Below are positions 35,469-38,582 of a stretch of 64,000 bases of DNA, piece after piece; the stretch's first letter is position 1, and each line of letters starts with the position of its first letter. The DNA is taken from contig NZ_CP027858.1 of NCBI RefSeq assembly GCF_005519465.1, positions 5,939,001 through 6,003,000 on the forward strand. Direction: 5' to 3'. Below the pieces are notes generated by a model. It made no database searches and had not been told where the DNA came from. It saw only the letters and a program-made list of their open reading frames with translations. Source of the DNA: Streptomyces clavuligerus (GTDB lineage Bacteria > Actinomycetota > Actinomycetes > Streptomycetales > Streptomycetaceae). The position numbers were made by a program, and so were the translations under genes.

Positions 35469-36305
35469 ATGCTCACCGAAGTCATCGCGACCCGCTATGT
35501 CACGCCCTTGCGTGAGGGCGGCTCGCTCCCGGGCATCGTCGAGGCGGACGACCTGGGTACGTATGTCATGAAGTTCACCGGCGCGGGACAGGGCCGCAAG
35601 ACGCTGGTCGCCGAGGTCGTCTGCGGCGAACTGGGCCGCCGGCTCGGACTGCGCGTCCCCCGGCTGGCCGCGATCCAGCTCGACCCGGTGATCGGACTCG
35701 GCGAGCCGGACCAGGAGGTGCAGGAGCTGCTGAAGGCCAGCGGCGGACTCAACCTCGCCATGGACTTCCTGCCCGGGTCGATCGGCTTCGACCCGCTGGC
35801 GTACGAGGTGGACCCCGCCGAGGCCGGCCGTGTGGTCTGGTTCGACGCGCTGATCAACAACGTCGACCGCTCCTGGCGCAACCCGAACCTGTTGGTGTGG
35901 CACGGAGATCTATGGCTCATCGATCATGGAGCCACCATGATCTGGCACCACAACTGGCCCTCGGCCGCCGCGTCGGCCGCCAAGCCGTACAACGCCTCCG
36001 ACCATGCCCTCGCCCGTTTCCGGCCCGATGTCCGGGCCGCCGCGGCCGAGCTGGCCCCGCTCGTCACCGAGGAGCTGCTCACCGAGGTGGCCGCGGACGT
36101 CCCCGACGCCTGGCTGGTGGACGAGCCCGGGTTCGACACACCGGACGCGCTGCGCCGGGCCTATGTGGAGGCCCTGCTGCCGCGGGCGGCCACCGTCCAC
36201 ACCCGGATCACCCTGGACGAGCCCACCCCCGACCGGCCCTCGCAGGCCCCCGGCTGGCTGACCGCCCGTCTGGACCCCACCGCACGGAAGGGAGACCGCG
36301 CATGA
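35469..36305 (+). CDS. HipA-like kinase family protein
   Basis: A 278-aa protein with a HipA/PI3-4-kinase-like fold. K35 in YVMKFTG is the probable ATP lysine. ALINNVDRSWRNPNLLV (127-143) holds D133, R134 and N138 in HipA-type catalytic arrangement, and LIDHG (150-154) is the metal-binding DFG equivalent. So the kinase signature is intact. No HipB antitoxin gene adjoins. Instead the stop codon overlaps the start of a DUF3037 gene (ATGA). This pair is seen together in many bacteria but its function has not been described to my knowledge. A -10-like TAGGGT 7 nt before the ATG suggests a leaderless transcript. Confidence 0.85.
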   Translation: MLTEVIATRYVTPLREGGSLPGIVEADDLGTYVMKFTGAGQGRKTLVAEVVCGELGRRLGLRVPRLAAIQLDPVIGLGEPDQEVQELLKASGGLNLAMDFLPGSIGFDPLAYEVDPAEAGRVVWFDALINNVDRSWRNPNLLVWHGDLWLIDHGATMIWHHNWPSAAASAAKPYNASDHALARFRPDVRAAAAELAPLVTEELLTEVAADVPDAWLVDEPGFDTPDALRRAYVEALLPRAATVHTRITLDEPTPDRPSQAPGWLTARLDPTARKGDRA

Positions 36306-36685
36306 GCGAGCGCCAGGTCTTCGAGTACGCGCTGCTGCGCGTGGTGCCCCGGGTCGAGCGCGGGGAGTGCTTCAACGCCGGGGTCGTGGTCTACAGCCGG
36401 GCCAGGTCCCTCGTCGCCGCCCGGACCCATCTGGACGAGAACAAGCTCAGGGCGCTCGACCCGGCGGCCGATGTGACGGGGGTACGGGCCGCGCTGCACG
36501 CCGTCGAGTCGGTCTGCCGCGGCGGTGCGGAGTCCGGGCAGGCGGCCGGGGACGACGCGGGGCGCCGGTTCCGCTGGCTGATCGCGCCGCGCTCCACGGT
36601 GGTGCAGCCGGGGCCCGTGCACACGGGGCTGACCGCCGACCCGGAGGCCGAGGTGGAGCGGCTGCTGGAGCTGCTCGTCCGCTGA
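36302..36685 (+). CDS. DUF3037 family protein, partner of HipA-like kinase
   Basis: A 127-aa soluble protein with the DUF3037 core (FEYALLRVVPRVERGECFNAGVVVY and RFRWLIAPRSTVVQPGPVHTGL). Start overlaps the stop of the upstream kinase gene by 4 nt, so synthesis is coupled in near 1:1 ratio. Function unknown. The coupling suggests a complex or a substrate/regulator relation with the kinase. A strong hairpin 14 nt after the stop closes the two-gene operon. Confidence 0.85.
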   Translation: MSERQVFEYALLRVVPRVERGECFNAGVVVYSRARSLVAARTHLDENKLRALDPAADVTGVRAALHAVESVCRGGAESGQAAGDDAGRRFRWLIAPRSTVVQPGPVHTGLTADPEAEVERLLELLVR

Positions 36686-36698
36686 GGACGAAGGGCCC

Positions 36699-36738
36699 CC
36701 GTGCCCCGGGCCCGGCCATCGGCCGCCCCGGGGCACGG
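36699..36738 (+). terminator. Terminator of the HipA-DUF3037 operon
   Basis: 12-bp stem CCGTGCCCCGGG / CCCGGGGCACGG around a 16-nt GC-rich loop. Confidence 0.75.
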
Positions 36739-36854: not shown

Positions 36855-36995
36855 CTCGTCCGTGCACATCGCCCGCCCGACCGGTTCCGCCGGGGCGGGC
36901 GGTGATCCGGGCACAGGGCCGTACCCCGGGGCACCCACCGGCGCCCCGGGGCCTTCCGGGGTATCGGGCCACTCATGGGCGAGGAGAAGAGAAGC

Positions 36996-37757
36996 ATGTC
37001 CACCACCGAGCAGCGTGTCGCCGTCGTGACCGGAGCGGCGCGGGGGATCGGCGCCGCGACCGCCGTACGGCTGGCCGCCGACGGCCGCGCCGTGGCCGTA
37101 CTCGACCTCGATGAGGCGGCCTGCGGGGAGACGGTCGAGAAGATCACCGCGGCGGGCGGCACCGCGCTCGCGGTCGGCTGCGACGTCTCCGACAGTAACC
37201 AGGTGGAGGCCGCCGTCACCCGGGTCGCCGCCGAACTCGGCCCGCCGGTCGTCCTGGTCAACAACGCGGGTGTGCTCCGCGACAACCTGCTCTTCAAGAT
37301 GAGCGAGTCCGACTGGGACACCGTGATGAACGTGCATCTCAAGGGCGCCTTCCTGATGACGCGGGCCTGCCAGAAGTACATGGTCGACGCCGGTTTCGGC
37401 CGGATCGTCTCGCTCTCCTCGTCCTCCGCCCTCGGCAACCGCGGACAGGCCAACTACGCGGCCGTCAAGGCGGGGCTCCAGGGCTTCACCAAGACCCTCG
37501 CCAAGGAGCTGGGCAAGTTCGGCATCACGGCCAACGCCGTCGCCCCCGGCTTCATCGTCACCGACATGACGGCGCAGACGGCGCAGCGCGTCGGCATGGA
37601 CTTCGAGGAGTTCCAGGCGGTCGCGGCCACCCAGATCCCGGTGCAGCGCGTCGGCCGCCCCGAGGACATCGCCGGGGCCATCGCGTTCTTCACCGGCGAC
37701 GACACGGGCTTTGTCTCCGGACAGGTCCTGTACGTGGCGGGCGGACCGCTGAACTGA
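36996..37757 (+). CDS. fabG: Short-chain dehydrogenase/reductase, FabG-like (3-oxoacyl-ACP reductase)
   Basis: A 253-aa classical SDR: TGAARGIGAA nucleotide-binding loop, NNAGVL, catalytic SSSSALGNRGQANYAAVK with Ser, Tyr and Lys in place, and a long C-terminal segment ending in GGPLN. NADP-dependent keto reduction of acyl-ACP or acyl-CoA is expected. Preceded by a consensus promoter with a TetR-like site; followed after 63 nt by a second SDR in the same direction. ATG after a GAGGAG, with an earlier in-frame ATG at 36975. Confidence 0.9.
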   Translation: MSTTEQRVAVVTGAARGIGAATAVRLAADGRAVAVLDLDEAACGETVEKITAAGGTALAVGCDVSDSNQVEAAVTRVAAELGPPVVLVNNAGVLRDNLLFKMSESDWDTVMNVHLKGAFLMTRACQKYMVDAGFGRIVSLSSSSALGNRGQANYAAVKAGLQGFTKTLAKELGKFGITANAVAPGFIVTDMTAQTAQRVGMDFEEFQAVAATQIPVQRVGRPEDIAGAIAFFTGDDTGFVSGQVLYVAGGPLN

Positions 37758-37820: not shown

Positions 37821-38582
37821 ATGGCCGCTGAGGTACCCGAGAGCGGAAAGGTCGCGCTGATCACGGGCGCGAGCCGGGGCATCGGTTTCGGGGTCGCGCG
37901 GGCGCTGGTCGCCCGGGGCGACCGGGTCTGCGTCACCGGGCGGGGCGAGGACGCGCTCAAGGAGGCCGTGGCCGAACTCGGCCCGGACCGGGCGATCTTC
38001 GTCGCGGGCAAGGCGCACGACGAGGCCCATCAGGCGGAAGCCGTGGAACGCGCCATGGAGACCTTCGGGCGGGTCGACTTCCTGGTGAACAACGCCGGGA
38101 CCAACCCGGTGTACGGGTCCATGGCGGAGCTGGACCTCCAGGTCGTGCGCAAGGTGTTCGAGACCAATGTGATCTCGGCGCTCGGCTTCGCCCAGCAGAC
38201 CTACCGGGCCTGGCAGCGGGAGCACGGCGGGGCGATCGTGAACATCGCCTCCGTGGCGGGCCTGGCCCCGTCCCCGTTCATCGGCGCCTACGGCATGAGC
38301 AAGGCGGCGATGGTGAATCTGACGCTCCAGCTCGCCCATGAGTTCGCGCCGGGGGTACGGGTCAACGCGATCGCGCCCGCGGTGGTGAAGACCCGGTTCG
38401 CCCAGGCGCTGTGGGAGGGCAGGGAGGAGGAAGCGGCCTCCGGGTATCCCCTGGGGCGGCTCGGGGTGCCCGAGGACATCGGCGGTGCCGCCGCCTTCCT
38501 CACCTCCGACCAGGCGGACTGGATCACCGGGCAGACCCTGGTGGTCGACGGCGGCCTCTTCCTCGGCGCCGGGGTCCACTGA
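37821..38582 (+). CDS. SDR family oxidoreductase
   Basis: A 253-aa classical SDR: TGASRGIGFG, NNAGTNPVYG, catalytic S in IASVAG, YGMSK motif, and C-terminal GQTLVVDGG. It resembles glucose-dehydrogenase-like or acyl-CoA-related SDRs and is likely co-transcribed with the preceding FabG-like gene. Specific substrate unknown. GGAAAGGAGCGG precedes the ATG. Confidence 0.88.
   Translation: MAAEVPESGKVALITGASRGIGFGVARALVARGDRVCVTGRGEDALKEAVAELGPDRAIFVAGKAHDEAHQAEAVERAMETFGRVDFLVNNAGTNPVYGSMAELDLQVVRKVFETNVISALGFAQQTYRAWQREHGGAIVNIASVAGLAPSPFIGAYGMSKAAMVNLTLQLAHEFAPGVRVNAIAPAVVKTRFAQALWEGREEEAASGYPLGRLGVPEDIGGAAAFLTSDQADWITGQTLVVDGGLFLGAGVH

Follow-up and report, generated by a model that had tools for sequence, protein, structure and literature searches.

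A single-copy HipA_2 kinase and DUF3037 gene pair with a core distribution in Streptomyces

We analysed a stretch of 64,000 nucleotides from Streptomyces clavuligerus (contig NZ_CP027858.1, positions 5,939,001 to 6,003,000 of the forward strand), called the window here, and in particular a pair of overlapping co-directional genes in it. The upstream gene encodes a HipA-like kinase of the HipA_2 family and the downstream gene a DUF3037 protein. The HipA_2-DUF3037 pairing itself is known; what is new is its setting and distribution, as the pair is core, single-copy and syntenic in this genus.

The gene pair

The kinase open reading frame (35469-36305, plus strand, 278 aa) and the DUF3037 open reading frame (36302-36685, plus strand, 127 aa) have the extent that an earlier note on this DNA, made without database searches, had given them, and both match their Pfam families above the cut-off. 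Searched over the whole host genome (8.54 Mb), each family gave a single match. The features of the pair are the following:

35469..36305, plus strand, stop included: HipA_2 Ser/Thr kinase gene, 278 aa (PF20613, 56.7 bits, cut-off 27; PDC-M66A, 55.4 bits)
35571..35573, plus strand: codon of K35, the ATP lysine (kept in 108/111 relatives)
35865..35882, plus strand: catalytic loop D133-R-S-W-R-N138 (D133 and N138 in 111/111 relatives)
35922..35930, plus strand: D152-H-G metal motif (kept in 111/111 relatives)
36302..36305, plus strand: ATGA overlap of kinase stop and DUF3037 start (a 4-nt overlap is possible in most relatives)
36302..36685, plus strand, stop included: DUF3037 gene, 127 aa, presumed restrainer of the kinase (PF11236, 146.1 bits, cut-off 22.6)

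The start of DUF3037 inside the kinase stop codon was confirmed, the two genes having the ATGA at 36302-36305 in common. An in-frame overlap of 4 nt is possible in 76 of 85 loci (GTGA in 58, ATGA in 17 and CTGA in 1), the other 9 being arranged otherwise. All 73 named loci that were read have GTGA, ATGA or TTGA at the kinase stop, and in 42 of them the matched DUF3037 starts exactly there.

Regarding the kinase, K35, E49, D133, N138 and D152 are all intact, and the residues that mark the HipA-type superfamily are found, namely the ATP lysine, the catalytic Asp, the catalytic Asn and the metal-binding Asp. The ATP lysine, DRxxxN and IDHG motifs that had been read from the letters alone correspond to K35, D133-R-x-x-x-N138 and I-D152-H-G. 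Of 111 aligned DUF3037-linked kinases, 108 retain both K35 and E49, and all 111 retain D133, N138, N140 and D152; the remaining three rows are without the K35/E49 region, one at a contig end (locus L022) and two at a frame break (L102 of genome G090 and L130 of genome G081). Replacement of these residues in most homologues, which had been named in advance as a result that would count against the proposal, was thus not what we found. The AlphaFold2 model of the kinase has CtkA as its nearest fold, then PI4KII and then HipA. The conserved REGGSLPG loop follows after only about 14 residues, the ATP lysine is already at residue 35, and there is no room for the N-subdomain 1 of HipA (about 100 aa); none of the fold alignments listed to HipA begins before HipA residue 64. 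The kinase matches HipA_2 and not HipA_C (PF07804), and no HipA_C is present in its own genome.

The downstream protein consists of DUF3037 only, with no C-terminal DUF1829 or DNA-binding part, and its length of 127 aa falls within the 122-155 aa seen across 129 extracted loci (duplicates included). R20, E22, N25, G27, D57, R89, S98, Q102, H107 and G109 do not vary in any of 115 short DUF3037 proteins, which come from three phyla (Actinomycetes, one cyanobacterium and two Bacteroidota); the core-type pair as a whole occurs in the Bacteroidota too. The structure model of DUF3037 (mean predicted local distance difference test, pLDDT, 62) gave no fold match, and the DUF3037 profile matched no HipS chain among solved structures.

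Distribution and co-occurrence

Of 121 Streptomyces genomes, 116 carry a single copy of DUF3037, and a kinase sequence adjoins it in all 116, far beyond chance. This adjacency was taken from match rows in 103 genomes and from the DNA of loci L004, L022, L097, L100, L102 and L127-L134 in the other 13, among which the kinase has a frame break in G090 and G081 and is split by a contig end in G030. The five Streptomyces without a DUF3037 match are G010 (a run of N in the assembly), G050 (contig end), G008, where neither gene was found, and G017 and G079, which have only aceB-type or chimeric kinases.

At the level of the order, DUF3037 is present in 243 of 245 genomes, and three carry a second copy (rows inspected in part); in one of the 243, G194, it is a 68-residue remnant. 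Among 197 genomes of the class, DUF3037 was found in 85 and HipA_2 in 84: both in 83, neither in 111, DUF3037 only in 2 (G428, and G414 with a match below the cut-off) and the kinase only in 1 (G481). Co-occurrence is strict. In 80 named loci kept from a wider scan the kinase was upstream in 80 (73 by motif, 7 by tblastn). The earlier note had proposed a search for such neighbours across bacterial genomes and had held that rare adjacency would refute it; instead, the two lie side by side in almost all cases.

As a rule, toxin-antitoxin and defence pairs have a patchy distribution. In contrast to the pair, canonical HipA_C is patchy here, as it occurs in only 1 of 41 Streptomyces genomes, whereas DUF3037 occurs in 38 of the same 41. 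The patchy, mobile distribution of mobile type II toxin-antitoxin systems is not the one we found for the pair (116/121 in single copy, 17/17 syntenic). No match was found among 50,697 phage records, none of 22 candidate stretches in the viral-contig scan was confirmed, and 6 of 72,556 plasmid records matched, one of them a chromosome-sized Nonomuraea record of 11.85 Mb.

Inheritance, selection and losses

Synteny was examined in 20 Streptomyces loci with up to 13 kb, 17 of which hold DUF3037, and the same two short-chain dehydrogenase/reductase (SDR) genes lie downstream in 17 of 17. In other families the flanking genes vary, and the two genes of the pair are the only ones that remain linked throughout (22 loci, 14 families). 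In the window, an S9 peptidase gene lies upstream in divergent orientation, and the two SDR genes and a family-5 solute-binding protein gene lie downstream. The features that follow the pair are:

36699..36738, plus strand: GC-rich hairpin 3' of the pair (not conserved, no T tract)
36975..37757, plus strand: first downstream SDR gene, synteny marker (Pfam adh_short_C2; 17/17 Streptomyces loci)
37821..38582, plus strand: second downstream SDR gene, synteny marker (Pfam adh_short_C2; 17/17 Streptomyces loci)

Each of the families f15, f20, f21, f28 and f35 (2 to 9 members) forms a monophyletic group on the joint FastTree tree; on the tree of DUF3037 by itself, f35 does not. The ratio of nonsynonymous to synonymous substitution rates (dN/dS) was 0.08-0.20 over 13 comparisons (7 of DUF3037, 6 of the kinase). 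The pair is under purifying selection, and it is inherited far more than it has moved.

The losses are few and skewed. DUF3037 is kept and the kinase gone in the one-contig genome G428. DUF3037 stays open and the kinase is broken in G090 (near residue 120; L102:5031-5833) and in the draft G081 (near residue 60; L130), a sequencing error being possible in both. In G307, G008 and G124, where DUF3037 is gone, there is no kinase match either, and the one kinase without DUF3037 at the class level (G481) breaks off after about 120 aa, short of the catalytic loop. This pattern fits the restraint of a harmful kinase without proving it.

The earlier note had also described a strong hairpin closing the operon. 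The hairpin at 36699-36738 is real (-53.1 kcal/mol for the 81-nt fold, z -2.65, 2 of 200 shuffles as good), but no T tract is present there. From the 80 named loci, 30 relatives were checked, and z fell below -2 in just 6 of them (mean z -0.54), so that the hairpin is not a conserved part of the system.

Relation to known systems

The PADLOC database holds the pairing as PDC-M66. The window kinase scores 55.4 bits against PDC-M66A, and DUF3037 scores 31.6 bits against PDC-M66B, a partial match that covers positions 2-128 of 281, less than half of the profile, for which the model gives no cut-off. According to passages of PMC12548924, the HipA/DUF3037 pair of Retron-Sda1 functions without the retron, with a toxin-like kinase and an antitoxin-like DUF3037: deletion of the kinase ends phage defence and deletion of DUF3037 is toxic. 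Sections of PMC13092281 describe DS-6/HipAD of E. coli, in which DS-6B, a predicted DNA binder, joins DUF3037 to DUF1829 and in which a catalytic-residue mutant of DS-6A lost defence.

No HipB-like gene was found among the six neighbours scanned (the S9 peptidase, the two SDRs, the family-5 solute-binding protein, a Rieske protein and an isochorismatase), so that the absence of a DNA-binding HipB partner held. Nevertheless, to describe the kinase as being without an antitoxin is misleading, since in Retron-Sda1, as far as those passages report, it is DUF3037 that plays this part. Because its loss there is toxic and loss of the kinase abolishes defence, DUF3037 would stand in for HipB.

The window pair resembles HipAD/DS-6 and PDC-M66 in having a HipA-like kinase gene beside a DUF3037 gene. 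It differs from DS-6, judged by its description, in that its DUF3037 is alone and lacks DUF1829 and in that its locus is core and syntenic. We did not class it as HipAD proper, because neither the C-terminal part nor the mobile setting was found. Retron-Sda1 shares the kinase and DUF3037 pair, but adjoins a retron, and the C-terminal region of its DUF3037 resembles a retron-associated protein (compared by the description in those passages). Unlike HipBA, the window pair has no HipB, no room for N-subdomain 1 and HipA_2 in place of HipA_C. The kinase is like HipT of HipBST in being without N-subdomain 1, but no HipS or HipB genes were found. CtkA of Helicobacter pylori has 13% identity to the window kinase and no known DUF3037 partner.

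The suggestion that the module was not yet described holds in part. The pairing was known from PDC-M66, DS-6/HipAD and Retron-Sda1, but for the core, short actinobacterial form we found no description in the texts searched, preprints being outside their scope. Full-text searching for DUF3037 gave three papers, one of them about a plant RNA exosome. The word "Streptomyces" is absent from the main texts of PMC12548924 and PMC13092281, as are "core gene" from the first and "core genome" from the second, and a term search of the main text of a survey of actinobacterial defence systems (PMC10482375) returned neither HipA, PDC nor DUF3037.

Long forms, paralogues and second copies

Two divergent DUF3037 copies are long and mobile, with about 290 aa (L121 in G388 and L123 in G443). 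In a loose alignment of these two sequences they keep E22, N25, G27 and Q102, and lose R20, D57, R89, S98, H107 and G109. Phage integrases adjoin both pairs. At L123:4061-12489 the long-form HipAD-like pair has the integrase on one side and a type ISP restriction enzyme of 1618 aa on the other, and the locus looks like a defence island.

A HipA_2 paralogue free of DUF3037 adjoins malate synthase A (aceB) in 12 of the 12 loci L135-L146 (11 second copies and the only copy of G017), and 6 of these loci also have a SelT/SelW-like Rdx gene; the set of aceB-linked paralogues also includes L104 and L105. Ser replaces N138 in 12 of 13 of them, a change that, to judge from the sequence, may weaken catalysis. 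The sole HipA_2 kinase of G017 (L138:9873-10757) is chimeric, through recombination or misassembly: its first half resembles the DUF3037-linked kinase, and from about residue 150 on it resembles the aceB paralogue. The gene lies close to the end of a contig.

In three Streptomyces genomes (L147:5243-6384 on the S. globosus plasmid NZ_CP030864.1, L257 and L258), a polyketide cluster of the factumycin type encloses a second HipA_2-DUF3037 pair, which stands between a phosphopantetheinyl transferase (PPTase) gene and ccrA, a TetR gene and the facT efflux pump gene; the pairs of the other two genomes are 87-94% identical to the plasmid copy. Elfamycins act on EF-Tu, and therefore self-protection by modification of EF-Tu is a possible idea for this pair. 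On a Leptolyngbya plasmid (L148:3739-5075, NZ_CP092420.1), the gene before DUF3037 overlaps it and encodes a hypothetical protein of 88 aa that may be what is left of a kinase; the gene after it encodes an EamA transporter, and there are transposases nearby. In L107, L116 and L122, too, the pair has EamA and/or NUDIX genes close by.

Interpretation

We consider it fairly probable that the pair represents a branch of the HipA_2-DUF3037 (HipAD-like) family that is inherited vertically and has a housekeeping role, with DUF3037 restraining a Ser/Thr kinase. The earlier note had included a kinase-regulator pair among its suggestions, and both the co-occurrence (83 with both, 1 with the kinase only, 2 with DUF3037 only, 111 with neither, n=197) and the Retron-Sda1 relative support it. 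DUF3037 would be translated from the mRNA of the kinase through stop-start coupling and, by analogy with Retron-Sda1, would bind the kinase and keep it off. Some signal would then release the kinase, which would phosphorylate a cell target, and the output would be a brake on growth. Single-copy presence in nearly every Streptomyces genome examined suggests an everyday job, and the role of the core pair is probably cellular.

Several observations weigh against this interpretation. The main counter-example is the kinase of G017, which has catalytic residues of the DUF3037-linked type (N138 kept) with no DUF3037 found, and the aceB-linked paralogue also exists without DUF3037 in the fetched loci. 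G194 has the DUF3037 remnant only and no kinase, and in G459 DUF3037 is split in two frames. Inheritance has not been strictly vertical: on the joint tree f19 and f30 fail to form monophyletic groups, and L108, which comes from the same family as the window but from a different genus, clusters with f19 and is without the synteny. In the literature searched there is no toxicity, binding or kinase assay for the core form. Finally, polar residues of DUF3037 are invariant over three phyla, which is more than is usual for a plain binding antitoxin.

This last point leads to the strongest of the other explanations, none of which we hold to be probable and not all of which exclude each other, so that the weights we give them overlap. 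DUF3037 might be an enzyme or a ligand sensor, for example a switch that responds to a small molecule or an eraser of the kinase mark, in which case the pair would be a signalling module and not a toxin-antitoxin system. The core distribution and the invariance of R20, E22, N25, D57, R89, S98, Q102, H107 and G109 in 115 of 115 short proteins argue for it, and we regard it as a tentative but serious candidate. With the same reserve we put forward a history of the family in which the core pair would be an ancient housekeeping signalling module of Actinomycetes, its DUF3037 an eraser or sensor with a functional site and not a mere plug, and mobile HipAD a derived offshoot that lost the site and gained the C-terminal DNA-binding part. 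Somewhat less likely is an anti-phage abortive-infection toxin-antitoxin system like DS-6/HipAD that has become fixed in the chromosome. The two families and their gene order are the same as in L121 and L123, PDC-M66A and PDC-M66B are matched, and defence was shown for two relatives, Retron-Sda1 (PMC12548924) and DS-6 (PMC13092281), in the passages cited. However, the core pair is single-copy in nearly all species with fixed synteny, and it is missing from the phage records (0/50,697), was confirmed in none of the 22 candidate stretches in viral contigs and is rare in the plasmid records (6/72,556); the long forms, which do adjoin integrases and, at L123, the type ISP enzyme, differ from it at six invariant DUF3037 residues.

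That the kinase acts on a small molecule (a metabolite, a lipid or an antibiotic precursor), with DUF3037 as a subunit, appears improbable. The second pair in the factumycin-type cluster would suit such a role, as would the predicted fold, in which the lipid kinase PI4KII comes second and above HipA; but CtkA ranks first among the fold matches, Pfam places the kinase in a HipA-like family, and among 22 loci of 14 families no metabolic gene is a widespread neighbour (EamA and/or NUDIX in 3 of 22). Constant adjacency and the invariant serine S98 would also be expected if DUF3037 were merely the substrate of the kinase. We give this very little credence, since DUF3037 deletion is toxic in Retron-Sda1 according to the same passages of PMC12548924 and DUF3037 persists without the kinase in G428.

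For the annotation of defence systems, scoring every HipA_2-DUF3037 pair as phage defence may inflate the counts in Actinomycetes. A near-universal, single-copy and syntenic pair in a genus of antibiotic producers offers a natural test of which came first for such kinases, cell physiology or defence, and the question becomes testable in one laboratory strain.
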